Shown piece after piece: positions 1 to 11,240 of a DNA stretch of 11,240 nt; within the stretch, counting starts at the first letter, position 1, and each line of letters opens with the position of its first letter. The notes beneath the pieces are model-generated. The model searched no databases. It was given only the letters and a program-made list of their open reading frames with translations, and was not told the DNA's origin. A program made the position numbers and the translations under genes. Source of the stretch: Sedimenticola sp. GTDB lineage: Bacteria; Pseudomonadota; Gammaproteobacteria; Chromatiales; Chromatiaceae. The stretch covers positions 1 through 11,240 of the forward strand of contig JALWGP010000201.1 of NCBI GenBank assembly GCA_027038775.1, read 5' to 3'.

Positions 1-711
1 CACTTTCACCGCGGTGTTCACCTTCACTTCGTCCAGCCTTTCGTAGGGGACCTGGATCTCGAGCCACAAGGGATCCAGGCGGCCGATGCGGTAGATGGGG
101 CTGGCGATCTCCACCCGCTGGCCGGGCGTGGCGAGCTGTTCGAGCACCACCCCGTCCATGGGCGAGCGCACCTGGAGGGTGGCGGAGAGGCGGTGGTGCT
201 TTTCCAGGGCTTTCACGGCCGCTTCGTCCATGCCGGAGAGCACGAGGGCCTGTCGCCGCTGTTCCACCTCGGTTCTGGCCTGGGTGAAACGTGCGCGGGT
301 TTCGAGAAAACGCCGCTCGGCGATGATGCCCTCCGCTTTGAGCTGGCGGTCGCGGTTCAGTTCGGCGCGCGCCAGGCCGAGGCGGGTGAGGGCCTCCAGG
401 TAGAGGCGCTGTTCCTCCACCAGCCTGGGGCTCTGGATGGTGGCGAGGGGTTGGCCCTTGCGTACCTTTTCACCCTCGGCGACCAGCAGGCTGGTGAGCA
501 GCCCTTCCTGGGGCGCCGTGACCACCCGGAGCTGGGCGTTGGGTACCCTCACCTTGGCGGGATAGGCGGTTCCCCATGCCCGGGAGACGGGGGCCACGGT
601 CGTGGTGTGGATGCCCAGCGCCTTCTCCTGTTCCGGCGCGATGTCGATGCGTGGGGCCGCGTGGGCGGTGCCGCCCAGCAGCAGGGCGAGTGCGAGAAGC
701 GTCTTTTTCAT
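1..711 (-). CDS. RND efflux periplasmic adaptor (membrane fusion protein), CusB/CzcB-like, 3' end cut by window
   Basis: Periplasmic adaptor that would link an inner-membrane RND pump to the outer-membrane channel encoded just upstream. The visible 237 codons begin with a Sec signal peptide (MKKTLLALALLLGGTAHA, residues 1-18). A biotinyl/lipoyl-like half follows around residues 70-95 (AEGEKVRKGQPLATIQSP), then a helical hairpin of alternating charged and Leu/Ala residues (about 97-165). The second lipoyl half has the family-typical SPMDGVVLEQLATPGQRV, and then the start of the beta-barrel domain appears (DPLWLEIQVPYERLDEVKV). The ATG at 711 overlaps the TGA of the upstream channel gene (ATGA), indicating translational coupling. 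The motif pattern resembles heavy-metal CusB/CzcB adaptors more than AcrA drug adaptors, but the substrate is inferred. The reading frame is open to base 1, so the C-terminus and probably the pump gene lie outside the window. Confidence 0.88.
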   Translation of the reverse strand, partial: MKKTLLALALLLGGTAHAAPRIDIAPEQEKALGIHTTTVAPVSRAWGTAYPAKVRVPNAQLRVVTAPQEGLLTSLLVAEGEKVRKGQPLATIQSPRLVEEQRLYLEALTRLGLARAELNRDRQLKAEGIIAERRFLETRARFTQARTEVEQRRQALVLSGMDEAAVKALEKHHRLSATLQVRSPMDGVVLEQLATPGQRVEIASPIYRIGRLDPLWLEIQVPYERLDEVKVNTAVKV

Positions 712-1922
712 CGGGGGATCACTCCTGAAACGTGATTCTTGCGGGCCAGGGCGCGGGCCTTTTCCAGTTTTCTCAGCCGCAGTTCACGGGTGGCCTGGTA
801 GGACTGCCGCCGCGCCAGCAGCAGCTGGTAGAGATCCATCTCTCCCAGCTCGAATGCCCGCTGTGCCAGCTTCAGACGGGAGAGGGAGAGGCGGTGGTTC
901 CGCTCTGCCAGCAGGTGGAGCCGGGTGGCTCGCGCCACCTCCTGTTCGGCCCGGGCCAGCTCCAGCTGCAGTTCCCTGCGGGCAAGGTCGAGGGAGGCCT
1001 GGGCCCGGGTGAGCTCGGCCTCCGCCTCGGCGATGGCGGGTGCCGCGGGTGCGCCGGTGCCAAGTGGCATGCTCACCTCCAGGCCCAGGGAGTCGGTATA
1101 GTCCTGGTTGCGGTCGCCGCGATCCCGTTTCGCAAACAGCGAGACCACCGGCGTGGCGCGGCGCCGGGCGCGGGCGTCGGCGGTCCTGGCCCGGGCCGTC
1201 TCCACCTGGGCCACCAGTGCGGCCAGCCGGGGGTGCGTGGCGGGGTTTTCCTCCGCCTTCCTGGCGGAAAAGGCTTCCAGGTCGTCCGGGAGGGCGTCCA
1301 GGCCGGTGTAGTTGCGCCAGGCGATACGCGCCTTCCGCAGGGCGTCCAGCGCCTCCTGGTAACCTGCTTCGGCAGTGATCAGGTCCTGTTGGGCCAGCAG
1401 AAGGTCGTTGCGGCTCACCTCACCCACCTCGTGGCGATGCCGGATGTCCTGGACCAGGGCCCTGGCCGCGGCCCACTGCTTCGTGGACTCCTTGAGTTCG
1501 GCCTGGGCGATACGCAGCTGCCAGGCCCGTTCCAGCACTTCGCCGGCCACCTGCCAGAGCAACCTCTTCCGGTCGTCGTCGGCGAGGCGCCCGATGTTGT
1601 CGGCGATGGCTGCCCTGGCGCTGCGTTGGCCGGGGAGCAGCACCGGCAGGGAGATGCCCACCACGTACTCCTCGTAGCCGAAGTCGCTGCCGAAGGTGTC
1701 CCCCGTGGCCGAAAGGGTCACGGACGGATCGCCGCCGAGCAAGGATTCCGCCTGCTGCCGGTAGCCGGCTTCTACCTTGTGCCGGGCCTCCGCCAGTCGA
1801 GATTCGGGATGTCGTTCCAGGGAAGCCTGGACGGCCTCGGCCAGGGTGACGGCGTGTACGGGCAGGGCCGCCAGGACGAGGATCGCCAGCAGGGCGGTAT
1901 GAACCAGGTGTCCGGTATGCAT
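708..1922 (-). CDS. TolC-family outer-membrane efflux channel (CusC/CzcC-like)
   Basis: A 404-aa outer-membrane factor with a signal peptide of about 25 residues (MHTGHLVHTALLAILVLAALPVHA) followed by VTLAEAVQASLERHP, the classic opening of TolC-family proteins. Two long helical repeats follow. Each has amphipathic Ala/Glu/Arg-rich helices, and each repeat has a short beta-strand region (YEEYVVGISLPV near 84-95; YTDSLGLEVSMPLG in the second half). The second repeat ends with LAQRAFELGEMDLYQLLLARR, a typical TolC C-terminal motif. The length (about 400 aa) fits the CzcC group. It is the first gene of the efflux operon and its stop overlaps the start of the adaptor gene. Its putative promoter is half of the shared operator at 1975-2015; the implied 5' leader is about 30 nt. 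The Shine-Dalgarno before ATG 1922 is weak. Function as channel is secure; the exported substrate is not. Confidence 0.88.
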   Translation of the reverse strand: MHTGHLVHTALLAILVLAALPVHAVTLAEAVQASLERHPESRLAEARHKVEAGYRQQAESLLGGDPSVTLSATGDTFGSDFGYEEYVVGISLPVLLPGQRSARAAIADNIGRLADDDRKRLLWQVAGEVLERAWQLRIAQAELKESTKQWAAARALVQDIRHRHEVGEVSRNDLLLAQQDLITAEAGYQEALDALRKARIAWRNYTGLDALPDDLEAFSARKAEENPATHPRLAALVAQVETARARTADARARRRATPVVSLFAKRDRGDRNQDYTDSLGLEVSMPLGTGAPAAPAIAEAEAELTRAQASLDLARRELQLELARAEQEVARATRLHLLAERNHRLSLSRLKLAQRAFELGEMDLYQLLLARRQSYQATRELRLRKLEKARALARKNHVSGVIPR

Positions 1923-1959
1923 CGGATGATCTCGAAATCGGTGACCGTCGGAAGGGGCA

Positions 1960-1991
1960 AGTGTACGGGGTTAGACTGAATCCAAACTGAA
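1960..1991 (-). promoter_or_regulatory. Predicted promoter of the efflux operon with response-regulator direct repeat
   Basis: Read on the minus strand, the arm TTCAGTTTGGATTCAG (1991-1976) contains TTCAG twice with an 11-bp period. Exactly 10 bp later comes TACACT (1965-1960), a reasonable -10 hexamer. No good -35 hexamer is visible, which fits an activator-dependent promoter of the PhoB/PhoP/PmrA kind. The start point would fall near 1953. Confidence 0.55.
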
Positions 1992-2015
1992 AATGGTGTT
2001 CAGTTTGGGTTCAGT
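1975..2015. promoter_or_regulatory. Symmetric operator: 17-bp inverted repeat built from 11-bp-spaced direct repeats
   Basis: The left arm CTGAATCCAAACTGAA (1976-1991) and right arm TTCAGTTTGGGTTCAG (1999-2014) are reverse complements with one mismatch and a 7-bp spacer. The flanking 1975 A and 2015 T extend the pairing to 17 bp. Within each arm the pentamer CTGAA/TTCAG occurs twice, one helical turn (11 bp) apart, which is the layout bound by dimers of OmpR/PhoB-family regulators (PmrA/QseB-type boxes have the same geometry). It lies between the efflux operon and the operon containing an OmpR-family regulator, so that regulator is the likely ligand (inference). Confidence 0.7.
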
Positions 2016-2030
2016 TCGTGCGGCTAGAAT
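1999..2030 (+). promoter_or_regulatory. Predicted promoter of the PepSY-regulator-kinase operon
   Basis: The right operator arm (1999-2014) is followed after exactly 10 bp by TAGAAT (2025-2030), a good -10 hexamer. There is no convincing -35 element, consistent with activation by a regulator bound to the direct repeat. The start site would be near 2037, giving a leader of about 36 nt. The same spacing is seen on the opposite strand. Confidence 0.55.
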
Positions 2031-2072
2031 CTGCCCAGACATGGGCTCCGCCCTTCGGTTATTGTTCTCGTG

Positions 2073-2426
2073 ATGAAACCTCTTTCTTTTCTTGTCGTGG
2101 CTTTCCTGGCATTCCTGCTGGGCGCGCTGGCCCTGTGGATGGCGCGTGAACAGTGGGAAAGCTACGAGCACGACGTGGAGCACGGGGGGTATTGGGACGG
2201 CGGTGATGCCGTGGAAACGGCCGGGCTGCTCTCCCTGGAGGAGATCGTCCGACGCCTGGAGCTGCCGGCAAAGAGCCGTATCCTGGAGGTGGAACGGGAG
2301 CTGGAGTCGGGGCGGATGTACTACGAGATCGAATTCCTCCTGCCGGATGGCCGCATCGAGGAGGTGATGGTGGATCCGCGCACCGCCGAGGTGGTGAAAA
2401 GAGAGCGCGAGGAGGGGGAAGATTGA
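2073..2426 (+). CDS. Small membrane-anchored PepSY-domain protein
   Basis: A 117-aa protein with one N-terminal hydrophobic segment (residues 4-22, SFLVVAFLAFLLGALALWM), uncleaved anchor or signal. An acidic linker and a single PepSY-like domain follow (about 53-113: LSLEEIVRRLEL, then YYEIEFLLPDGRIEEVMVDP). PepSY modules are often encoded beside two-component systems and are thought to act in the periplasm. Here the gene comes first in the operon, and its TGA overlaps the TTG start of the response regulator. It may modulate the kinase sensor domain or act as an extracytoplasmic sensor, but this is inference. A GTG directly before the ATG (2070) is an alternative start adding one residue. No clear Shine-Dalgarno precedes either. 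Confidence 0.8.
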   Translation: MKPLSFLVVAFLAFLLGALALWMAREQWESYEHDVEHGGYWDGGDAVETAGLLSLEEIVRRLELPAKSRILEVERELESGRMYYEIEFLLPDGRIEEVMVDPRTAEVVKREREEGED

Positions 2427-3082
2427 GGCTGCTGCTGGTGGAGGACGACGAAGCGTTGGTGAAGGGGCTGCTGCCCCAGCTGCGCCAGGCCGGCTACGCC
2501 GTGGACGTGGCCACGGACGGGCGGGAGGCGCTGTTCCTTGGAGAGACCGAGAGCTACGACCTGGTGGTGCTGGATCTCGGCCTGCCGGAGATGGGCGGGC
2601 TCGAGGTGCTGACGCAGTGGCGCGCGCGGGAGATCCCGGTGCCCGTGCTGATTCTCACTGCCCGGGACAGCTGGATGGAAAAGGTGGAGGGGCTCCGCGC
2701 CGGTGCCGACGACTATCTCACCAAGCCCTTTCACACGGAAGAACTGCTGGCGCGATTGCAGGCGCTGCTGCGGCGCAGTCACGGCCGGGTAGAGGGACAA
2801 CTGCGGGTGAACGACATCCTGCTGGACGAGGAGCACCAGCAGGTGCGCCTGGACAGCGGCGAGACGGTACCCCTCACCGGCACCGAGTTTCGCCTGCTGC
2901 GATACTTCATGATGAACCCGGGCAAGCTGCTCTCCAAGAGCCGCCTCACCGAGCACGTCTACGAACAGGACTTCGACCGTGACAGCAACCTCATCGAGGT
3001 CTACGTGCGGCGCCTGCGGGAGAAGATCGGCAGGGAGCGCATCGAGACGCGCCGGGGGCAGGGGTATGTCTTCCGCGGATAG
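2423..3082 (+). CDS. OmpR-family response regulator (PmrA/QseB/PhoP-like)
   Basis: A 219-aa DNA-binding response regulator. The receiver domain (1-115) has the acidic pocket E7/D8/D9, phospho-acceptor D51 (VVLDLGLPEMGG), T79 (ILTARD) and K101 (DDYLTKPF). The C-terminal winged helix (about 125-217) contains TGTEFRLLRYFMMNPGKLLS, then the recognition-helix region SNLIEVYVRRLREKI and the wing RRGQGYVF. The start is TTG, supported by a GGAGG 7 nt upstream and by the match of MRLLLVEDDE to family N-termini; TTGA overlaps the stop of the PepSY gene. The kinase gene starts inside its last codons. It probably binds the operator at 1975-2015, making the efflux operon and its own operon targets. The signal is unknown, possibly a metal or cationic compound given the pump. 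Confidence 0.92.
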   Translation: MRLLLVEDDEALVKGLLPQLRQAGYAVDVATDGREALFLGETESYDLVVLDLGLPEMGGLEVLTQWRAREIPVPVLILTARDSWMEKVEGLRAGADDYLTKPFHTEELLARLQALLRRSHGRVEGQLRVNDILLDEEHQQVRLDSGETVPLTGTEFRLLRYFMMNPGKLLSKSRLTEHVYEQDFDRDSNLIEVYVRRLREKIGRERIETRRGQGYVFRG

Positions 3083-4382
3083 CCGGCCGGTCTCCCTGGA
3101 GGCCAGCCTCAGCCGGCTGCTGACGCTCCTGCTCTTCCTGGTGCTGCTCCTGCTGCTGGGCATCGCCGCCTGGATCGGGCGCGAGAGCGCCATCCAGTTC
3201 GCGCTTTCCCGGCTGCACCACGACGCCGAGGCCATCATCGGCAACCTGGACGTGGGTGGCAGGCGGCTGGCAGGCGACATCCAGCCCATCTACCGCCAGC
3301 CCCTTTCCGGGCACTACTACCTGGTCCGCTTCCGGGACGGCACCTCCATCAAGAGCCGCTCCCTGTGGGACGAGGGGCTGCAGGTTCCGGAACGGGTTTC
3401 CCGGCTGCCCCGTTACTGGCTGATGAACGGCCCACGGGACCAGAAGCTGCTGGTGTGGCAGAAGTCCTACGAGAAGAACGGGGAGACCTTCACCATCGCC
3501 ATCGCCGAGGACGTGGCACCCCTGCTGGCCGCCATCTGGCGCTTCGTTGGCATCGGCGTGGTGGCTTCCGTCGCCGCGGTGCTGCTCATGCTGCTGCTGC
3601 AGCGATTCATCATCCGCCGCGCCTTCACCCGGCTGGACCGGATCGGTGAGGAGGTTCGGGAAGTGCGCAAGGGAAGCCGGGAGGAGGTGGGCACCGACGT
3701 GCCCGCCGAGGTGCTTCCCGTGGTGGAGGAGTTCAACCAGTTGCTGCACGCCTGGCGACAGCACCAGGAGCGGTCGCGCAACGCGGTGGGCAACCTGGCC
3801 CATGCGCTGAAGACCCCGCTGCAGGTGATTATGCGCTTCGGCGAGGCCCGGAACGAACCCGTGATCCTGGAACAGAGCCGGCACATGCAGCACCTCATCG
3901 AGCAGGAACTCAAGCGGGCCCGCATCACCGGCCGGGCGGCGGTGGGGCGTCACTTCCGCCCGCGGGAGGACCTGGGGGCACTGGCAGAGACCCTGAGCAC
4001 GCTCTACCACCAGAAGGCGCTGCACATCGGCCTGGAGGTCGAGTCGCCCGAGACCCTCTACCTCGACCAGGGAGACATGCTGGAACTCGTCGGCAACCTT
4101 CTCGACAATGCCGCCAAGTGGGCGGAAAAGGAGGTGCGCCTGCACCTGGATGTGGACGGGAACCTGGCAGTGGTGGTGGAGGACGACGGTCCCGGCATCG
4201 ACCCCCATCGGCGGAAGCGGCTGCTGGACCGCGGAAGCCGCCTGGACGAGAACCGGCCCGGCCACGGGCTCGGCCTGGCCATCGTGCGGGACATCGTGGC
4301 GCTCTACGGCGGCAGCCTGGAGCTGGACGATTCACCCTCGCTGGGCGGGCTGCGGGTGCGGGTGACCTTGCCCCTGGAGTGA
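3066..4382 (+). CDS. PhoQ-like membrane sensor histidine kinase
   Basis: A 438-aa inner-membrane kinase. The first transmembrane helix is at about 17-37 and the second at about 158-178, enclosing a periplasmic sensor of roughly 120 residues. A HAMP-like linker follows, then the dimerisation helix with phospho-acceptor H246 in NLAHALKTPLQVI. The H-box form A-H-x-L-K-T-P is that of PhoQ relatives rather than the common SHELRTP. The ATPase domain has the N-box ELVGNLLDNAAKW (N344, N348), G1 DDGPGID (G375) and G2 GHGLGLAIVRD. The ATG at 3066 lies 17 nt inside the regulator gene and matches the start of a plausible cytoplasmic N-terminus; in-frame sequence upstream is only a shadow of the regulator. 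Its 3' end overlaps the opposing kinase gene by 51 bp. It is the cognate partner of the upstream regulator by operon structure. Confidence 0.9.
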   Translation: MSSADSRPVSLEASLSRLLTLLLFLVLLLLLGIAAWIGRESAIQFALSRLHHDAEAIIGNLDVGGRRLAGDIQPIYRQPLSGHYYLVRFRDGTSIKSRSLWDEGLQVPERVSRLPRYWLMNGPRDQKLLVWQKSYEKNGETFTIAIAEDVAPLLAAIWRFVGIGVVASVAAVLLMLLLQRFIIRRAFTRLDRIGEEVREVRKGSREEVGTDVPAEVLPVVEEFNQLLHAWRQHQERSRNAVGNLAHALKTPLQVIMRFGEARNEPVILEQSRHMQHLIEQELKRARITGRAAVGRHFRPREDLGALAETLSTLYHQKALHIGLEVESPETLYLDQGDMLELVGNLLDNAAKWAEKEVRLHLDVDGNLAVVVEDDGPGIDPHRRKRLLDRGSRLDENRPGHGLGLAIVRDIVALYGGSLELDDSPSLGGLRVRVTLPLE

Positions 4383-5699
4383 CTTCACCTGCACGCAGGC
4401 CGCCAGCCCTCCTTCGTGGCGGTTTTCCAGTTTCACCTCCCATCCCTGGATGGCCGCCAGTTGGCGGACGATGGCCAGGCCCAGACCGCTGCCGCCGGTG
4501 GCGGTGCTGCGCGAGGGCTCCAGGCGGTGGAAGGGCTGGAACACCCTTTCCAGTTCCGCTTCGGGGATGCCGGGACCGCGGTCGATCACGCAGACCCTGG
4601 CCTTCGCTTTCCCGCACTCCAGGCGCAGCACGACCTCCTTCCCGTTCCCGTAGTGGAGGGCGTTGTCCAGCAGGTTGCCGAGGATGCGGCGCATGGGCAG
4701 CGCCGGTACCTCCATGGAGCAGGAGGAGGGCAGCTCCACGACGAGGGCTTCTCCCTGCCTGCGGTACTCTTCCGCCACCGTCTCCACCAGGTGCTGCAGG
4801 GGCCGCCGTTCCATTGCGCCGTCGTCCGCCTGCAGGGCGCCGGCCAGCTCCAGCGTGCGGGTGACGATGTCGTTCATCTCTTCCAGGTCCCGTCTCATCT
4901 GCGCCAGCAGCTCCGGGTCAGAGTGCTCTTCCAGGAGCTCCAGGGCGATGCCGAGGCGGGCGAGCGGGGTGCGCAGGTCGTGGGAGATCCCTCCCAGCAG
5001 CGTGGTCCGGTTCTCCAGCAGCCGCTGTACTTCGCTGCCAAGCTCGTTGAACTTGCGGGCCAGGAGGGCCAGTTCGGTGGGGCCGCTCTCTTCCAGGGGC
5101 TCGAGAAGACCGCTCTGGCCGAGCCGCTGCACCCCCTGGCCCAGGCGGGTCAGGGGACGGTTGATCCGGCGCACCACGAGCAGGGTCGTGATGAGAATGA
5201 AGGTTCCCGCACCGGCGAAGATCCACAACAGTGCCCGCGGCGGCCTGGCGCCCACCCGGTCGTGGGAGAAGCCGAGGTAGAGGATCCTGTCGCCCGCCGG
5301 TACGGGGGCCCAGTACCACTGTTCTTCTTCGGGTACCTGGTGGAGGTGGGTTGGTTGTCCCAGGCGCCGGTCCAGTGCCTTTTCCAGGAAACGCATGTAG
5401 GGGGAGTGGTAGGCGAGGGGTTGCAGGGATCCCGGTGGAGGGGTATCCCGGAGCCGGAGTCGATGCTCCTGCTCCAGTTCGGCGACGAACTCGGGCCGGA
5501 TCGGCGGGGGCAGCTCCACCCAGGTCTGGGCCGACAGCACGATGAGGGCCGCCAAGTCGTCCGCTGCCTGCTGGCCGACCGGTAACAGGATGTACCTGAA
5601 GGTGACGATGCCCGTGAAAAGGATGAACAGGAGGAGGGCGGCGGCGAGGGTGAGCGCGGTTCTTGCGAAGAGGCTGTTGGGGGCTCTCATGCCGGTCAC
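4332..5699 (-). CDS. envZ: EnvZ-like sensor histidine kinase
   Basis: A 455-aa kinase with transmembrane helices at about 16-38 and 158-176, and a periplasmic region of about 115 residues between them. A HAMP domain (RRINRPLTRLGQGVQRLG) follows, with phospho-acceptor H240 in GGISHDLRTPLARL, N-box ILGNLLDNALHY, G1 DRGPGIP, F-box VFQPFHR and G2 GSGLGLAIVRQ. Order, H-box and length agree with the EnvZ family (about 450 aa). The GTG start at 5699 overlaps the TGA of ompR (GTGA); ATG at 5690 is an alternative three codons in. It would phosphorylate the OmpR encoded upstream. The last 16 codons, rich in Gly, His, Pro and Gln, read antisense through the end of the PhoQ-like kinase gene and look like non-conserved read-through. 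Confidence 0.88.
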   Translation of the reverse strand: MTGMRAPNSLFARTALTLAAALLLFILFTGIVTFRYILLPVGQQAADDLAALIVLSAQTWVELPPPIRPEFVAELEQEHRLRLRDTPPPGSLQPLAYHSPYMRFLEKALDRRLGQPTHLHQVPEEEQWYWAPVPAGDRILYLGFSHDRVGARPPRALLWIFAGAGTFILITTLLVVRRINRPLTRLGQGVQRLGQSGLLEPLEESGPTELALLARKFNELGSEVQRLLENRTTLLGGISHDLRTPLARLGIALELLEEHSDPELLAQMRRDLEEMNDIVTRTLELAGALQADDGAMERRPLQHLVETVAEEYRRQGEALVVELPSSCSMEVPALPMRRILGNLLDNALHYGNGKEVVLRLECGKAKARVCVIDRGPGIPEAELERVFQPFHRLEPSRSTATGGSGLGLAIVRQLAAIQGWEVKLENRHEGGLAACVQVKSLQGQGHPHPQPAQRG

Positions 5700-6406
5700 G
5701 CCGCGTCCGGCTCCGGCGTAAACATGTAGCCCTTGCCCCAGACAGTGCGGATGTAGCGGGGCTCCCTCGGATCGGGTTCGATCTTGTGCCGCAGGCGGGT
5801 GATGCGGACATCGATGCTGCGGTCGTAGGGTGAGCGCTCGTAGCCCTTGAGCAGATCGATGAGACGATCCCTGCTGAGAACCCGGTTGGGGTTGCGGGCC
5901 AGGATCTCCAGCAGTGCCATTTCCCCGCTGGTGAGCGGGACCTCCGTTTTCCCCTTCCAGAGCGTGTGGCTGTGCAGGTTGAGCCGGTAGGGACCGAAAC
6001 GGAAGACCTCGGTTTCACCGGTTTTCCTGCTGCTCTCGGTGCGCCTGAGGATGGCGCGGATGCGGGCCGCCAGTTCGCGGGGGTTGAAGGGCTTGGCGAG
6101 GTAGTCGTCGGCACCGATCTCCAGTCCGACGATGCGGTCGATCTCCTCGCCGCGCGCGGAGAGGATGAGTACCGGCAGGTCCGTGGCGGCCCTGAGTTCC
6201 CGCGTCAGCGTCAGGCCGTCGTCCCCCGGCAGCATGAGGTCCATCACCACCAGGTCCGGCCGCTCCCGGGAGATCAGCGCCTTCATGGTCCTGCCGTCAG
6301 CGGCGGTGCGCACCTCGAACCCCTGCCCGCGCAGGTAGCGCTGGAGCAGGTTCCGCAGGGCCGGGTCGTCGTCGACGACCAGTATGCTGGGCGGGTGGCG
6401 GGACAT
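5696..6406 (-). CDS. ompR: OmpR response regulator
   Basis: A 236-aa regulator closely resembling OmpR. The receiver has D12/D13/D14, phospho-acceptor D56 (VVMDLMLPGDDGL), S83 in place of the usual Thr, K105 (DYLAKPFNPRELAARIRA), and the stretch EEIDRIVGLEIGADDY that is almost diagnostic for OmpR. The winged-helix domain includes PLTSGEMALLEILARNPNRVLSR, split here by nothing unusual, then DRSIDVRITRLRHKIEPDP and the wing VWGKGYMF. ATG 6406 is chosen because MSRHPPSILVVDDD fits the family N-terminus; upstream in-frame codons lie in the intergenic gap and then shadow the divergent gene. The Shine-Dalgarno is weak. It forms an operon with the EnvZ-like kinase. The regulated genes are not visible, but a possible OmpR-like motif lies in its upstream gap. 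Confidence 0.9.
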   Translation of the reverse strand: MSRHPPSILVVDDDPALRNLLQRYLRGQGFEVRTAADGRTMKALISRERPDLVVMDLMLPGDDGLTLTRELRAATDLPVLILSARGEEIDRIVGLEIGADDYLAKPFNPRELAARIRAILRRTESSRKTGETEVFRFGPYRLNLHSHTLWKGKTEVPLTSGEMALLEILARNPNRVLSRDRLIDLLKGYERSPYDRSIDVRITRLRHKIEPDPREPRYIRTVWGKGYMFTPEPDAA

Positions 6407-6541
6407 GGGGGCGATGGTAGCAGAAGCCCCTGGGAAGGCCGGCAGATGAAACAAATTGTTACCGATTGTGGGGTGTGTGCCAGGGGCGGGCGCTGTATCA
6501 TTCCGGCGGTTTCGGATTTCGTGCAAAGAGGAAATGCAAAC
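6407..6541. promoter_or_regulatory. Divergent ompR / cytochrome intergenic region with small palindrome
   Basis: This 135-bp gap must hold the promoters for ompR (minus) and the cytochrome gene (plus). It contains the 11-bp palindrome AACAAATTGTT (6450-6460). Read on the minus strand from 6461, GTAACA and GTTTCA start 10 bp apart, resembling OmpR-type half-sites (GxxAC). A TATCAT at 6496-6501 could be a -10 for the cytochrome gene but has no matching -35. All assignments here are tentative. Confidence 0.3.
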
Positions 6542-7006
6542 ATGTGCCGGTTGTGCTGGATCGTTCTTTCCCTGCTGCTCCTGGTGATGGCCGGGGTGGC
6601 CTACAAGGTGGTGGTCGTGGGCAGCGTGGAGGAGACGCCGGACGGGCGCCAGGCGCTGCTGCTGACCCGTGCCGAGCGCAACCTGGTGCTGGCCGAGATG
6701 CGGGGATTCCTGGTGGCGGTGCAGGCCATCGTCGCCGCCACCAATGATGAGAAGATGGAAGCGGCGGCGGAGGCGGCCGCCCGGGTGGGCATGGCTGCGC
6801 AGACGGATATTCCCCCGGGGCTCATCGCCAAGCTGCCGCTGGAGTTCAAGAAGCTGGGCTTCGACACCCACCGGAAGTTCGACGCGCTGGCGCTGGATGC
6901 CCGTCAACTGGGCGATCCCGACCACACCCGGGAACAGCTGGCGGCGCTCATGGCCAACTGCCTCGCCTGCCATGCCGCCTACAGCCTGAAGGTGGCGGAC
7001 CAATAG
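6542..7006 (+). CDS. Membrane-anchored cytochrome c'/c556-like monohaem protein
   Basis: A 154-aa protein with an N-terminal hydrophobic segment (about 5-22, CWIVLSLLLLVMAGVAYK) and a helical, Ala/Glu/Arg-rich body. A single haem-binding site CLACH (C140, C143, H144) lies near the C-terminus, the arrangement of the four-helix-bundle cytochromes c' and c556. The conserved-looking stretch LPLEFKKLGFDTHRKFDAL precedes the haem helix. A Met in the first helix (AEMRGFL) could be the sixth ligand as in c556; if not used, the site would be open as in c', which binds NO and CO. AGAGGA (6527-6532) sits 9 nt before the ATG; a nearby ATG at 6534 is in another frame. It would function in the periplasm. 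Cleavage of the N-terminal segment is uncertain because no good signal-peptidase site is seen. Confidence 0.78.
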   Translation: MCRLCWIVLSLLLLVMAGVAYKVVVVGSVEETPDGRQALLLTRAERNLVLAEMRGFLVAVQAIVAATNDEKMEAAAEAAARVGMAAQTDIPPGLIAKLPLEFKKLGFDTHRKFDALALDARQLGDPDHTREQLAALMANCLACHAAYSLKVADQ

Positions 7007-7019
7007 CGGCGGGCCGGGT

Positions 7020-7706
7020 TTACTCCTGCGGCAGGCTCTGGATCCCCTTCATCGGCAGGAAGAGGCCGCAGCCCAGGTGGCGGTGGCCGCCCAGCCCCTC
7101 CTCCTGCAACGCGAGAGAGTCTTCGGGACCGAGGTCGGCCAGCATCAGGCTGCGGGTGACCAGCGGACCCTCCGGCGTGGCGATCTCGGTGGCCCTGCCG
7201 CAGAGCGCCTTCTTGACGCGGATGCGACGCGCCTTCAACTCGCGGGCGATGCGCTCGAGGAAGCGGTTCTCGTCCTCGGCCTCCCCTTCCAGCATCCGCA
7301 TGTGCCGGGCGTAGAGGGTGGGGTGGCTGAAAAGGCGCTTCTCGCGCGCCTTGCCCAGGGTCAGCTCGAAGCCGCCGAGGTCGAGGGTCACCCCTTCCAG
7401 CCGTTGCCGTACCTCCCCGGCCCGCTCCAGGGGCACGCGCAGCTGCATGCGGCTGCGGCGCGAGGGGATGAGGTGCTGGCCCAGCGCGGGGTCGGGTCGC
7501 TCCCAGCCGTTCTGGGAGCCGGCCAGGTGGATCTCGTGGACGCCGATGCCGGCTTCCACCAGGTCGGGCAGGTGGGCCTGCAGCGCCCGGCTCAGGGCGT
7601 GCAGGTGATCGACCGGCAGCATGCGGCTGGTGAGGGCGAAGGAGAGGTCCACCACCCGGGGCGATTCCTCGACGATATCACCGTCGGTCTCTTCTTCCCA
7701 GAGCAT
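7020..7706 (-). CDS. Cas6/Cmx6-like (RAMP-superfamily) protein, not CRISPR-linked
   Basis: A 228-aa protein resembling the Cas6/Cmx6 family (the type I-MYXAN Cas6 group). Visible hallmarks are LPVDHLHALSRAL (30-42), then SRRSRMQLRVPLE, a second half opening EDENRFLERIARELKAR, and the C-terminal glycine-rich loop GLGGHRHLGCGLFLPMKG (204-221). The Gly-rich loop near the C-terminus is typical of RAMP-fold RNA-binding proteins. H34 and the His/Arg residues in the loop (H208, R209, H210) could serve catalysis or RNA contact, which cannot be decided here. ATG 7706 is preceded by GGAGGAGTGAGC, a strong Shine-Dalgarno that overlaps the upstream stop codon; a GTG two codons earlier is possible. It is the last gene of a three-gene unit. 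No repeats or other cas genes are seen, so a role in crRNA processing in cis is unlikely. Family call is from remembered motif pattern. Confidence 0.68.
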   Translation of the reverse strand: MLWEEETDGDIVEESPRVVDLSFALTSRMLPVDHLHALSRALQAHLPDLVEAGIGVHEIHLAGSQNGWERPDPALGQHLIPSRRSRMQLRVPLERAGEVRQRLEGVTLDLGGFELTLGKAREKRLFSHPTLYARHMRMLEGEAEDENRFLERIARELKARRIRVKKALCGRATEIATPEGPLVTRSLMLADLGPEDSLALQEEGLGGHRHLGCGLFLPMKGIQSLPQE

Positions 7707-7708
7707 GC

Positions 7709-8419
7709 TCACTCCTCCGGCAGGCGGGCCTGCAGTGCCTCCCGGTCGAACCACCAGTCGTCCTGCACCAGCACGTCCACGATGTTGCGCAGGCGCACCA
7801 GGAACTTCTCCGGCTGGTCGAGTTCCAGCTTCTCGATCCAGTAGTCGAACTGCTGCTGGCTCTCCACCTCGCTGTGGCGCCGCGCCACGTTGCCCAGCAT
7901 CTGCTGGGTGAAGAAGCGCAGGTCCTCCCGCTGCCTGGGCCCGGTGGCGCGCAGGTCGGCCACGAAGGCGGCGGTGGCGGCGGCCACGGCGGCGCCGTCG
8001 GCGTCGGGCGGCGTGTCGTCGATGAGGTGCTGCAGCAGGGTGATGGTCACCTCGGGGTCGATGGGGTAGGTGACCGCCAGCCAGATGCCCTGGCCCAGGG
8101 CCGCCAGGGAGCCGGGCTGGTCGGCCAGGTAGAGCACCTCGCACGCCTCGGCGGCCGGCTGCCACTGTTCGGTCTCGATGAAGTGGTCCAGCGCCTCCCG
8201 CGCCAGGGGCCAGGCCTCCCCGCCCCGCTCGAGCAGCGCCAGGTTGCGGGCCATTTCCAGCGCCAGCTCGTGGCGGCGGGCCGCCTCCGAGGGGGGCAGG
8301 GCGGCATGCTGCTCACGCAGTTCCGCCAGTTCGCCCTCCAGGCGCGCCTTTTCCGCCGCCTCCTCGGCGGGGGAGACGGGCATCACGTCCGGCTGCTGGC
8401 CGGGATCGAGGAAGTCCAT
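7709..8419 (-). CDS. Conserved-looking hypothetical helical protein (236 aa), middle gene of the Cas6-like operon
   Basis: Not recognised. The 236-aa product is soluble and acidic, with no signal peptide or membrane segment. Residues about 18-60 form a charged Ala/Glu/Leu/Arg segment likely to be coiled coil (AEKARLEGELAELREQH). Residues 60-110 (ALEMARNLALLERGGEAWPLAREAL, broken here by turns, then WQPAAEACEVLYLADQP) look like TPR-type helix pairs. The C-terminal third has FVADLRA, FFTQQMLGNVARRHS and a Trp/Asp-rich end (VLVQDDWWFDREAL). The stop lies 2 bp before the ATG of the Cas6-like gene and the start is 3 bp after the stop of the 67-aa gene, so the three are surely co-transcribed. A scaffold or partner of the Cas6-like protein is a plausible but unproven role. 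Confidence 0.72.
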   Translation of the reverse strand: MDFLDPGQQPDVMPVSPAEEAAEKARLEGELAELREQHAALPPSEAARRHELALEMARNLALLERGGEAWPLAREALDHFIETEQWQPAAEACEVLYLADQPGSLAALGQGIWLAVTYPIDPEVTITLLQHLIDDTPPDADGAAVAAATAAFVADLRATGPRQREDLRFFTQQMLGNVARRHSEVESQQQFDYWIEKLELDQPEKFLVRLRNIVDVLVQDDWWFDREALQARLPEE

Positions 8420-8422
8420 GGC

Positions 8423-8626
8423 TCACACCCTGCCGCAGAAGGCGGCCTCGATGCGGTCTTCCCAGTCCTCGGGCGTGTCGGGAAATTCCGGCTTCACGTC
8501 GGTCTTGAGGAAGCGTTCGCCGGCGCGGGCGTACTCGCGCACCAGTTCCAGCAGCTCCTCGAAACTCTCCAGTTCGTAGTTGGAGACCAGGATGTTGCTC
8601 AGGGCCAGGGGTTCGTCGTTCATCAT
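8423..8626 (-). CDS. Small acidic hypothetical protein (67 aa), first gene of the Cas6-like operon
   Basis: Not recognised. The 67-residue protein is strongly acidic and mostly helical in appearance: ESFEELLELVREYARAGERFL in the middle, then a Pro/Asp-rich turn (EFPDTPEDWEDRIEAAF) and a C-terminal CGRV. There is no signal or membrane segment. Two successive ATG codons (8626 and 8623) can start it; AAGGA lies about 11 nt upstream. It is the promoter-proximal gene, 3 bp before the next gene, and behind a promoter with an FNR-type box. Tight packing, GC-biased third positions and operon placement argue that it is real in spite of its size. Confidence 0.65.
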   Translation of the reverse strand: MMNDEPLALSNILVSNYELESFEELLELVREYARAGERFLKTDVKPEFPDTPEDWEDRIEAAFCGRV

Positions 8627-8652
8627 TTTCTTGGGATCCTTCTCGTACGGGT

Positions 8653-8658
8653 TTATGC
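8653..8658 (-). promoter_or_regulatory. Candidate -10 element of the Cas6-like operon
   Basis: CATAAA on the minus strand lies about 30 bp downstream of the centre of the FNR-type box. This puts the expected start near 8646 and the box centre near -40, the usual class II position (-41.5) for FNR/ANR activators. The hexamer itself matches TATAAT at four of six bases, normal for activated promoters. Confidence 0.45.
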
Positions 8659-8678
8659 AGCAGAATATGGCATCCGTT

Positions 8679-8692
8679 TGATCCAGATCAAC
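8679..8692. promoter_or_regulatory. Perfect FNR/ANR/DNR box
   Basis: TTGATCCAGATCAA matches the consensus TTGAT-N4-ATCAA at every conserved base. FNR-type regulators sense oxygen through an Fe-S cluster, and DNR-type relatives respond to nitric oxide; both bind this motif. Position relative to the minus-strand -10 fits class II activation of the Cas6-like operon. Relative to the plus-strand promoter at 8709-8738 the centre is about 60 bp upstream of the start, a class I position, so one site could serve both directions. Confidence 0.75.
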
Positions 8693-8708
8693 ACCTCACC
8701 CATAGCGG

Positions 8709-8738
8709 TTGACGCTCGAAGCGTTGGTTGTCTAAGAT
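8709..8738 (+). promoter_or_regulatory. Candidate sigma-70 promoter toward dsrA
   Basis: TTGACG (8709-8714) and TAAGAT (8733-8738) are separated by 18 bp, five and four matches to consensus. The start would be near 8745, leaving a leader of about 410 nt before dsrA. The long leader is a reason for caution; a closer, activator-dependent start (for example TACAGT at 8976-8981, without a good -35) is also possible. Confidence 0.4.
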
Positions 8739-8901
8739 CTGCCGTCAATTTTGCAGGATGAGTATACGCTAAAATACTGATTCTGCTTCCCAGGGCGCCG
8801 CCACTTGGCGTCTGCCAGCTCTTGTAAGCTGTAAAAAACACCGGTCGGTCAAGGAGTTGTCAGGCCGGTACCGCCGTTTTCCGCGCCCAGAGGCACGGTG
8901 A

Positions 8902-8921
8902 TCTATCCCATAGGGGATAGA
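8902..8921. promoter_or_regulatory. 20-bp palindrome, candidate operator upstream of dsrA
   Basis: TCTATCCC (8902-8909) and GGGATAGA (8914-8921) are perfect reverse complements with spacer ATAG. The inner part can be read as two heptamers TATCCCA and TATCCCC (opposite strand, 8919-8913) in a 7-2-7 arrangement like NarL/NarP sites, although each departs from the NarL consensus. The binding protein is unknown. Confidence 0.5.
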
Positions 8922-8938
8922 CGCAAGGGATGAAAATA

Positions 8939-8965
8939 CCCCCGATGGCGGAGTGTTTCCGGGGG
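8939..8965. promoter_or_regulatory. GC inverted repeat in dsrA leader
   Basis: CCCCCG (8939-8944) pairs perfectly with CGGGGG (8960-8965) around a 15-nt loop. The left arm with its flank reads TACCCCC, similar to the TATCCC units of the palindrome 17 bp upstream. It may be a DNA site or an RNA hairpin; no run of T follows, so it is not an obvious terminator. Confidence 0.35.
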
Positions 8966-9156
8966 AATGCTCGGCTACAGTTAGCAGCTGCTGATGAAGG
9001 TGGGGTTTTCCGCGGCGCGGTTCCCAACCATCGTCAAGAGGAGTGACAACAGTTTCGGGCCACCGCCCGTCCGATACGGGTCCCGGGCCGTACAGGCGGC
9101 CCAGGCGTGGCGCACGAGAGAACTACCGTATTCACGATCTAGTCAGGAGACTCAAA

Positions 9157-10425
9157 ATGGCGATCGAAAAACACCATACCCCCATGATTGACCAGCTCGA
9201 GGACGGTCCTTGGCCGAGCTTTATCAAGGGCATCAAGCGCCTGCGTGACGAGCACCCCGATGAGCGCATCAACGCCATGGCCAACGACCTGCTGGGTCAG
9301 CTGGAGACTTCCTACGAAACCCGTCTCGGTTACTGGAAGGGCGGCACCATCACCGTCTTCGGTTACGGTGGCGGCATCATCCCCCGCTTCACCGAGCTGA
9401 AGGACGACGAGGGCAACCCCCGCTTCCCCAACGCCGCCGAGTTCCACACCATGCGCATCCAGCCCCCGCCGGGCTTCTTCTACAACACCGACGTGCTGCG
9501 CAAGATCATCGACATCGACGAGAAGTACGGCTCCGGCATGATCTGCATGCACGGTCAGACCGGCAACCTGATGCTGGTGGGCATGGACTCCGACGCCATC
9601 CAGCCCTGCTTCGACGAGATGAACGAGCTGGGCTTCGACCTCGGTGGCGCAGGTCCCTGTGTGCGTACCGGCATGTCCTGCGTGGGTGCCGCCCGCTGCG
9701 AGCACTCCAACATCGACGAGGGCAACATCATGCGCACCCTGCTGAACAACTTCCAGGATGACATGCACCGCCCCGCGCTGCCCTACAAGTTCAAGTTCAA
9801 GGTCAGCGGCTGCGCCAACGACTGCACCAACTCCATCCAGCGCGCCGACATGGCCATCATCGGCACCTGGCGTGACGACATGAAGGTCAACCAGGAAGAG
9901 GTGAAGGCCTTCGTGGAGAAGAAGGGCCGCAAGTACGTGATCGACAACGTCATCACCCGCTGCCCCACCAACGCCCTGACCCTGCATGACGACGACACCC
10001 TCGAGGTGAACAACAAGGACTGCGTGCGCTGCATGCACTGCATCAACGTCATGACCAAGGCCCTCTCCCCCGGGGACGACAAGGGCTGCACCATCCTCAT
10101 CGGCGGCAAGCGCACCCTGAAGATCGGCGACCTGTTCGGTACCGTGCTGGTGCCCTTCATGAAGGTCGAGACCGAAGAGGACCTGGAGAAACTGGTGGAG
10201 CTGGCCGAGGAGATCATCGACTTCTTCGCCGAGAACGCCCTCGAGCACGAGCGTACCGGCGAGATGATCGAGCGCATCGGCCTGGCCAACTTCCTGGAAG
10301 GCATCGGCATCGACGTCGATCCCAACATGGTGGAGCGTCCCCGCACCAGCAGCTACGTCCGCATGGACGGCTGGGACGAGGAAGCCGCCAAGTGGGAAGA
10401 GCGCAAGAAGGCCGCGGCCAGCTGA
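9157..10425 (+). CDS. dsrA: Dissimilatory sulfite reductase alpha subunit (probably reverse/oxidative type)
   Basis: A 422-aa DsrA, normal length for the family. With DsrB it forms the cytoplasmic sirohaem enzyme that, in sulfur oxidisers, oxidises stored or DsrC-bound sulfur to sulfite. Sirohaem/[4Fe-4S] ligands are C175 and C181 (MSCVGAARCEHSN) with C219 and C223 (SGCANDCTN). The inserted ferredoxin domain has C269 (RCPTNAL) and the CVRCMHC motif (C289, C292, C295). The ATG at 9157 is supported by CAGGAG 7 nt upstream and by the family-like N-terminus MAIEKHHTPMIDQLEDGPW. Codon use is strongly biased to C-ending codons, indicating high expression. The oxidative assignment rests on overall resemblance to Allochromatium-type sequences and the gammaproteobacterial neighbourhood; a phylogeny would settle it. 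Confidence 0.95.
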   Translation: MAIEKHHTPMIDQLEDGPWPSFIKGIKRLRDEHPDERINAMANDLLGQLETSYETRLGYWKGGTITVFGYGGGIIPRFTELKDDEGNPRFPNAAEFHTMRIQPPPGFFYNTDVLRKIIDIDEKYGSGMICMHGQTGNLMLVGMDSDAIQPCFDEMNELGFDLGGAGPCVRTGMSCVGAARCEHSNIDEGNIMRTLLNNFQDDMHRPALPYKFKFKVSGCANDCTNSIQRADMAIIGTWRDDMKVNQEEVKAFVEKKGRKYVIDNVITRCPTNALTLHDDDTLEVNNKDCVRCMHCINVMTKALSPGDDKGCTILIGGKRTLKIGDLFGTVLVPFMKVETEEDLEKLVELAEEIIDFFAENALEHERTGEMIERIGLANFLEGIGIDVDPNMVERPRTSSYVRMDGWDEEAAKWEERKKAAAS

Positions 10426-10449
10426 TCCCGCAAACCACATACCGACAGA

Positions 10450-10476
10450 CCGGCCGCGGCCCCGCGCCGCGGCCGG
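10450..10476 (+). promoter_or_regulatory. Strong GC hairpin between dsrA and dsrB
   Basis: CCGGCCGCGG (10450-10459) and CCGCGGCCGG (10467-10476) form a perfect 10-bp, all-GC stem with a 7-nt loop. It begins 24 bp after the dsrA stop and ends 27 nt before the dsrB ribosome-binding site. No T run follows, so full termination is unlikely. It more probably stabilises or delimits the dsrA message or sets the dsrA:dsrB balance. Confidence 0.7.
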
Positions 10477-10503
10477 CATGGAACAGACGAATTTCAGAAT
10501 CTT

Positions 10504-10510
10504 AGGAGGT
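10504..10510 (+). promoter_or_regulatory. Consensus Shine-Dalgarno of dsrB
   Basis: AGGAGGT is a perfect anti-16S match and lies 4 nt before the ATG at 10515. It fixes the dsrB start and implies efficient initiation immediately after the intercistronic hairpin. Confidence 0.85.
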
Positions 10511-10514
10511 ACGC

Positions 10515-11240
10515 ATGTCCGATCAACCTCGCATGCCCATCGAATCCGGTACGCCGGATCATTTCCAGTACATGCATCCCACGCTGCGCAAGAACTACGG
10601 CCAGTGGGCGTATCACGACCGTCCGCGCCCCGGTGTCCTGCACCATGTCTCCAAGAATGGTGACGAAGTCTGGACCGTGAAGGCCGGTTCCCCCCGTCAG
10701 CTGGACATCCTGACCCTGCGTACCATCTGCGACATCGCCGACGAGTTCTGCGAGGGCTACCTGCGGTTCACCATGCGCGGCAACATGGAGTTCATGACCA
10801 CCGACGGCTCCAAGGTGGATGCCCTCATCGAGCGCCTGGAGAGCGCCGGCTTCCCCGTGGGCGGCACCGGCAACTCGGTGACCATGCTCTCCCACACCCA
10901 GGGCTGGCTCCACTGCGACATCCCCGGTACCGACGCCTCCGGCGTGGTGAAGGCGATGATGGACGAGCTCTACGAGGAGTTCAAGAACGAGGAGATGCCC
11001 AACCGGGTGCACATCACCACCTCCTGCTGCCAGATCAACTGCGGCGGCCAGGGGGACATCGCCATCAACGTGCAGCACACCAAGCCGCCCAAGATCAACC
11101 ACGATCTGGTGGCCAACGCCTGCGAGCGTCCCGCCGTGGTTGCGCGTTGCCCGGTGGCGGCCATCCGTCCCGCCATGGTGAACGGCAAGCCCACCCTGGA
11201 GGTGGACGAGAAGAAGTGCGTCTGCTGCGGCGCCTGCTTC
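10515..11240 (+). CDS. dsrB: Dissimilatory sulfite reductase beta subunit, 3' end cut by window
   Basis: The first 242 codons of DsrB (full proteins are about 355-360 aa). The N-terminus (MSDQPRMPIESGTPDHFQYM) and the sirohaem-binding elements GWLHCDIP (C134) and TSCCQINCGG (C171, C172, C176) are in the order expected for DsrB, which carries the catalytically active sirohaem. The ferredoxin insertion begins with RCPVAAI (C212) and continues KKCVCCGACF (C235, C238, C241) at the window edge. It follows dsrA by 89 bp and has its own consensus ribosome-binding site. Codon use is the same highly biased pattern as in dsrA. dsrEFHCMKLJOPN-type genes would be expected downstream, outside the window. 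Confidence 0.95.
   Translation, partial: MSDQPRMPIESGTPDHFQYMHPTLRKNYGQWAYHDRPRPGVLHHVSKNGDEVWTVKAGSPRQLDILTLRTICDIADEFCEGYLRFTMRGNMEFMTTDGSKVDALIERLESAGFPVGGTGNSVTMLSHTQGWLHCDIPGTDASGVVKAMMDELYEEFKNEEMPNRVHITTSCCQINCGGQGDIAINVQHTKPPKINHDLVANACERPAVVARCPVAAIRPAMVNGKPTLEVDEKKCVCCGACF

Follow-up and report, generated by a model that had tools for sequence, protein, structure and literature searches.

The closest described systems to the gene considered here are the Cas6 of a type I-B CRISPR-associated transposon (CAST; structure 8fcj) and the Cas6/Cmx6 of type I-MYXAN, both from CRISPR (clustered regularly interspaced short palindromic repeats) biology. A gene for a 228-amino-acid (aa) protein in a stretch of 11,240 nucleotides from Sedimenticola sp. 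(contig JALWGP010000201.1, positions 1 to 11,240; hereafter the window) encodes a member of the same family and fold, but it has no adjoining cas operon or array, it lies in a neighbourhood of dissimilatory sulfite reductase (dsr) genes, and its product has an NGW insertion and a weakened basic loop. The DevTRS proteins of Myxococcus belong to a CRISPR-Cas system and are Cas subunits of other kinds, whereas the present branch is a Cas6 without such a system. Excerpts of PMC8616872 present DevTRS as Cas-type proteins whose regulatory role, in development, lies outside defence. As for the dsr genes, excerpts of PMC7596348 show that the arrangement of the tauD-like gene dsrQ beside dsr clusters, which is matched by the TauD gene of the cassette described below, was described by Loffler et al. 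2020, citing Lenk et al. 2012, and that tauD also goes with dsr outside Gammaproteobacteria; Cas6 and CRISPR are absent from the main text of that paper. In the Solemya symbiont genome, dsrC homologues without the two cysteines are reported in excerpts of PMC4287430.

The gene is located as follows.

7020..7706, minus strand: dsr-linked Cas6-family gene, 228 aa (TIGR02807, PF09559, AlphaFold2 model, tree branch)

The protein narrowly passed TIGR02807, the equivalog model of type I-MYXAN Cas6/Cmx6 (105.2 bits; cut-off, 98.85), and it matched PF09559 at 1.1e-57 over residues 19-220 of 228 and the PADLOC Cas6 model at 5.3e-55. The AlphaFold2 model (predicted local distance difference test score, 87.8) showed the Cas6 fold, and a Foldseek/VIA search with this model returned 8fcj_B, the Cas6 of the type I-B CAST, as the top match. 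A search for a CRISPR array in the window and a search for Cas1 in the window's genome both found none. These results confirmed the sequence-only reading of the window, which had described a Cas6/Cmx6-like protein beside dsr without CRISPR; its reservation that similarity to Cas6 or RAMP (repeat-associated mysterious protein) folds might be missing was removed by the clear similarity to Cas6. Since the protein belongs to the Cas6 fold family, yet its gene lacks the cas-gene or array context of a type I-MYXAN Cas6 and is surrounded by dsr genes, we file it as a new, non-CRISPR variant of the family.

To follow its distribution, 147 genomes of the window's order were searched with a Cas6-like alignment, dsrA and Cas1. 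Both dsrA and the cas6-like gene were detected in 131 genomes and neither in 11, which were spread over six genera; three genomes had only the cas6-like gene and two only dsrA. A similar pattern was found among 369 genomes of the class (both, 110; neither, 244; cas6-like only, 8; dsrA only, 7). One genome of each discordant kind was checked: in G273, one of the eight with cas6-like only, the contig stops inside the neighbouring tauD, and in G352, one of the seven with dsrA only, it stops just upstream of dsrA. In a sample of the phylum, dsrA was present in 52 of 349 genomes. The cas6-like gene was found in all three class genomes with dsrA in this sample (the window's own genome excluded), and in none of the 48 dsrA genomes outside Gammaproteobacteria, 18 of which fall short of 90% completeness and 5% contamination.

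The distribution of Cas1 was different. Cas1 was detected in 99 of the 147 order genomes and showed no association with the cas6-like gene (92/134 with the gene and 7/13 without; p 0.35, p values here ignoring phylogeny). No Cas1 match at 1e-6 was obtained in 42 of the 134 carriers, and Cas1 was kept in 7 of the 11 genomes that have neither dsrA nor the cas6-like gene. These counts bear on the explanation that the protein is an ordinary CRISPR Cas6, which processes CRISPR RNA from arrays elsewhere in the genome. That explanation has in its favour the family name and models and the many relatives that have CRISPR systems; it is already contradicted by the Cas1 counts and by the position of the protein in the tree described next, and we consider it very improbable. 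The results showed that, in Gammaproteobacteria, the Cas6-like protein accompanies DsrA almost obligatorily and has no tie to CRISPR.

A maximum-likelihood tree (unrooted, with the bootstrap not fully settled) was built from 27 gammaproteobacterial and three beta-like dsr-linked rows and nine CRISPR-type or cyanobacterial rows, L065 and L070 being left out; the three beta-like loci (L134-L136) are so named by sequence divergence alone. The 30 dsr-linked rows were split from the other nine at 100/99 and the gammaproteobacterial rows formed a clade at 99/97, so that the dsr-linked Cas6 did not group with the Cas6s of CRISPR loci. The related CRISPR-type rows came from a low-scoring second Cas6-like copy that is present in some genomes of the order. 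The stretches around the second copies L063-L066 contain Cas1 and two of them an array; in L067-L070, no Cas1 was found among the matches listed and no array was seen. Because the CRISPR link of L067-L069 is unverified, three of the nine CRISPR-type rows are assigned from their sequence only. The paralogues of L067 and L069, which are acidic, adjoin a likely WYL-type regulator (judged by eye), with no Cas1 or array in the stretch, and are possibly another CRISPR-free Cas6. The possibility had been raised beforehand that homologues would consistently sit in CRISPR-cas loci; the homologues examined were in dsr loci, and the CRISPR-type copies were separate from them.

The position of the gene was analysed next to the following neighbours.

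7709..8419, minus strand: 236-aa acidic helical protein resembling tetratricopeptide repeat (TPR) proteins
8423..8626, minus strand: 67-aa acidic protein, here called small; core D-[VI]-K-P-x3-D-T-P-x2-W-E in its majority form (alignment)
9157..10425, plus strand: dsrA, dissimilatory sulfite reductase alpha subunit, divergent (TIGR02064, 578 bits)
10578..11240, plus strand: dsrB, cut by the contig end, start codon undetermined (TIGR02066, 342.5 bits)

Among the 134 order genomes with the cas6-like gene, it was divergent from dsrA within 2.7 kb in at least 110, a lower bound because 12 genomes had no dsrA among the matches listed; in 11 others it was on a contig other than that of the listed dsrA, and in G046 the two genes were far apart on one contig. 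Among 114 class genomes outside the order, at least 76 had the genes adjacent and divergent, 28 had them on different contigs, two had them on one contig but far apart and eight had no dsrA among the matches listed. No adjacent pair in a non-divergent orientation was seen among the paired order and class genomes. A scan of the genome collection gave 41 relatives, including loci of a Solemya gill symbiont, Thiohalocapsa, Thiocapsa, Thiolapillus and Sedimenticola; the cas6-like gene was divergent from dsrA in 35, and four of the other six have at most about 2.1 kb upstream.

In occurrence and position, the gene thus behaves like an accessory gene of the reverse-acting dissimilatory sulfite reductase (rDsr) cluster, since it occurs where dsrA occurs and mostly lies beside it. 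Because occurrence, position and the separate branch all tie it firmly to rDsr, a Cas6-family protein has very probably been recruited to this system. The sequence-only reading had proposed that the Cas6 fold was recruited outside CRISPR to something in sulfur metabolism, and this was borne out by a presence that follows dsrA, not Cas1, mostly at its side; a role in nitrogen metabolism, which had also been proposed, found no support. Close linkage to dsr could also be expected of an inert relic that merely hitch-hikes. Such a relic is contradicted by residues that are invariant over the class sample (see below), by retention of the gene away from dsr in G255 and G469 and by its retention in genomes of 1.0-1.1 Mb, and is scarcely credible.

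The composition of the cassette was surveyed in 53 loci, comprising the 41 relatives, 11 specially fetched, non-random loci (L126-L136) and the window. The small gene was present in 45 of the 52 loci with room for it and the TPR-like gene in 39 of 53, and, of the 49 loci with 490 bp or more beyond cas6, 41 had a DsrC-family gene after it. The place between dsrA and small is in many loci occupied by a TauD-family gene. The usual cassette, divergent from dsrAB, therefore reads tauD/dsrQ, small, the TPR-like gene, cas6 and a DsrC paralogue ending in KGGY. The three beta-like loci have cas6 without the small and TPR-like genes. There, dsrA directly faces a divergent cas6, which is followed by the DsrC-family gene, a gene for an unknown protein of about 200 aa (L135, L136) or a rhodanese (L134), and then tauD.

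In three loci of one family with genomes of 1.4-1.6 Mb (L127, L128 and L133), a dsr-type cas6 lies remote from dsr, in head-to-head orientation with rnc (RNase III) and the genes downstream of it. Genes for RNase III, a SpoU methyltransferase and a Dus enzyme are among those next to copies located away from dsr; a TauE-family gene is near the copy in L232 and an Obg GTPase near that in L234. These neighbours are suggestive of RNA, in an anecdotal way only, because they were noticed post hoc and the RNase III example comes from a single family. Behind the cassette, some genomes encode a further small protein of 64-67 aa (MSTKQEKIQEMLDMQK...; L231:5351-5554, L238:6624-6827 and L230:6905-7099), for which a Pfam scan of the L231 and L230 copies found no family. 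Elsewhere in the window are two pairs of OmpR-type regulator and histidine kinase (2423-6418) and a TolC-like gene (708-1922).

The DsrC-family gene after cas6 matches PF04358. Its product is a member of the DsrC/TusE family but ends in KGGY in place of PTGCV, and so is without the penultimate cysteine of DsrC; apart from L136, the cysteine before it has been substituted as well. In L006 and L014, the DsrC of the operon proper retains ...CRYAGLPKPTGCV. The KGGY paralogue was located at L006:10775-11119, L014:10834- and L036:10945-11283 and also in L134-L136, and contig C58 of the window's genome carries a KGGY copy. A cysteine-less subgroup of the family has been named RspA, although a search did not confirm the name. 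Genomes G599, G685, G725 and G737 of other classes carry the KGGY paralogue, with C-termini read, and no detected cas6; G783 has a match of equal extent whose C-terminus was not read. The notion that the cassette was gained as one unit was accordingly rejected in part. The paralogue may act on DsrAB/DsrEFH as a decoy or regulator. The idea that it passes sulfur to RNA was considered and dropped because the penultimate cysteine is missing.

The intergenic region that separates the cassette from dsrA contains the following elements.

8678..8691, no strand: FNR-type box TTGATCCAGATCAA, read in the sequence, upstream of the sigma-70-like promoter and about 480 bp before the dsrA start codon
8709..8738, plus strand: sigma-70-like promoter TTGACG-18-TAAGAT pointing to dsrA (one in the stretch against 0.2 expected from shuffles; region conserved)
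8904..8919, no strand: palindrome TATCCC-N4-GGGATA, the only copy found in the window's genome (alignment, genome count)
8938..8954, no strand: second inverted-repeat site ACCCCCGATGGCGGAGT, about 34 bp past the palindrome (alignment)

An FNR-type box accompanied by a sigma-70-like promoter, and the palindrome with the second inverted repeat behind it, stood out in an alignment of 13 intergenic regions. The box, TTGA[TC]-N4-ATCAA, was found at -370 to -480 of dsrA in the window and in 15 of the related loci scanned. In the dsrA-facing region of close relatives, such a box would fit redox or oxygen control. Conservation of a GATCTAGTCAGGAG-like motif, at the ribosome-binding site of dsrA, was confined to part of the order.

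The palindrome was single-copy in 11 of 12 genomes and stood at dsrA in 11 of 12, with zero hits for the reversed control, the 12 genomes being hand-picked, several because relatives had shown the element. Among 60 class regions, the exact form was present in 19, a relaxed form in 30 and neither in 30, with search patterns fitted to the element of close relatives. Neither the dsrA upstream regions of 28 genomes from outside the class nor the three beta-like loci showed it, and the 1.0-1.1 Mb genomes L129-L131 gave no match to the exact form. The half-sites vary on either side (TATCTC..GGGATA in 9 and TATCCC..GAGATA in 5 of the 60 rows). In many Gammaproteobacteria (e.g., L171, L184 and L226), a second dyad (approximately ACCCCAT-N2-RTAGGGT) lies 31-34 bp past the palindrome, with a -10-like element about 75 bp on. 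Palindrome and dyad together look like what we take to be tandem 7-2-7 sites of a NarL/LuxR-type regulator.

Divergent cassettes often encode a regulator of their neighbour, and the operator-like architecture, found across the class and placed at dsrA as counted above, would agree with a part for the Cas6-like protein in dsr transcription, in which it senses the sulfur or redox state with the KGGY DsrC paralogue and acts at the operator region. However, a scan of the three window cassette proteins found no DNA-binding domain above the cut-off, and the presumed NarL/LuxR-type dimer was not among the window genes scanned. The exact element was also not found in 41 of the 60 class regions, in L129-L131 or in the beta-like loci, although the last carry cas6, and half of the 60 regions lack even the relaxed form. 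We regard such a regulator as improbable.

Whether the protein acts on RNA was weighed from its residues. The C-terminal glycine-rich loop reads GLGGHRHLGCG at 204-214, and glycines 204, 206, 212 and 214 are kept in 96-100% of the 27 gammaproteobacterial rows. Residues invariant among these rows include H34, R84, R90, E146, K166, G170 and Q201, and H34 is invariant across the dsr-linked, beta-like and CRISPR-type rows. The NGW insertion was present in 26 of the 27 rows, in none of the three beta-like rows and in none of the nine CRISPR-type rows. An intact Cas6 fold, a conserved histidine and invariant basic residues in a mostly acidic protein argue for a narrow, specific RNA site, and we judge the chances of an RNA-acting mechanism to be close to even.

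Several results weigh against such a mechanism. The loop GG[RK]R[RK][ML]GCG has become GGHRHLGCG or similar, with most basic residues gone. Structure 8fcj carries N at the position equivalent to H34, so H34 need not be the catalytic residue. The dsr-linked gammaproteobacterial rows have a median net charge of -5 (isoelectric point 6.1), with only 2 of 27 positive, and the beta-like rows range from -0.6 to -4.6; six CRISPR-locus rows (three cyanobacterial, L063, L064 and L066) are basic, at +5.7 to +16.9. Acidity is shared, at -6.9 to -14.6, by the CRISPR-type rows L067-L069 of unverified context and is therefore no peculiarity of the dsr branch. For the dsrA leader, RNAalifold did not support a conserved RNA structure (z -1.6 for 13 close relatives and -0.45 for 15 others). 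The palindrome, a potential hairpin, was considered as an RNA ligand of Cas6 and rejected; it was read as a DNA operator upstream of a promoter because its half-sites vary and the second dyad and -10-like element follow at set spacing. Operator-like architecture of this kind therefore does not speak for an RNA ligand, and no candidate for one emerged. Thus, the Cas6 fold and the sulfur link of the RNA-binding protein first proposed for a non-CRISPR job were upheld, and RNA binding or processing by it is putative.

These same features could be explained by a protein-only role, in which the Cas6 fold serves DsrAB/DsrC or the sulfur relay in scaffolding, assembly or quality control, together with the TPR-like protein and the KGGY DsrC paralogue. 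The loss of basic residues from the loop, the acidic isoelectric point, the near one-to-one occurrence with dsrA and partners of a protein-protein type (TPR-like, small acidic and a DsrC without the penultimate cysteine) agree with it. A scaffold, however, has no evident need of a conserved histidine and basic residues, the beta-like loci do without the small and TPR-like genes, and no copy was detected in any of the 48 dsrA genomes sampled outside the class. This role is possible but somewhat doubtful.

For the recruited, RNA-acting protein, we suggest the following course. The protein would derive from a type I-B/MYXAN-like Cas6 that lost its broadly basic surface for repeat RNA and gained a conserved site consisting of H34, the NGW loop, R84, R90, K166 and R185. 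A specific RNA would most likely still be bound and perhaps cleaved, with the TPR-like and small acidic proteins as putative partners, and the protein may be dedicated to the sulfur-oxidation system, as its post-transcriptional regulator or a processing factor. In its fullest form, which we offer as a tentative possibility, the rDsr-bearing Gammaproteobacteria would descend from an ancestor in which an endoribonuclease of CRISPR processing was domesticated, in a single event, and this enzyme would control, by way of a specific RNA, the expression of dsr or the sulfur relay, with the KGGY-tailed DsrC as a decoy and the TPR-like protein as a platform.

No account linking Cas6/Cmx6 to dsr was found in the open-access literature, including that on CRISPR-free Cas6, on tauD with dsr and on dsrQ; an account elsewhere is possible. 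The main texts of the Dsr-evolution surveys PMC11406059 and PMC10504309 contain no Cas6, CRISPR or TauD, and in excerpts of papers matching Cas6 and dsr together, the mentions of Cas6 concern CRISPR loci or a gene list. Among the best 120 of 805 database relatives, every name given was a CRISPR Cas6 name. Such names can mislead counts of CRISPR systems and hide a near-constant companion of rDsr. Cassette loci occur in the cultured strains Thiocapsa imhoffii DSM 21303 and Thiohalocapsa marina DSM 19078; the genes being few, conserved and present in cultured strains, knock-outs can be attempted. Should the protein act on RNA, a Cas nuclease family would, in a rare instance, have moved permanently from immunity to energy metabolism, and this would bring post-transcriptional control into view for a pathway important for the sulfur cycle and chemosynthetic symbioses.
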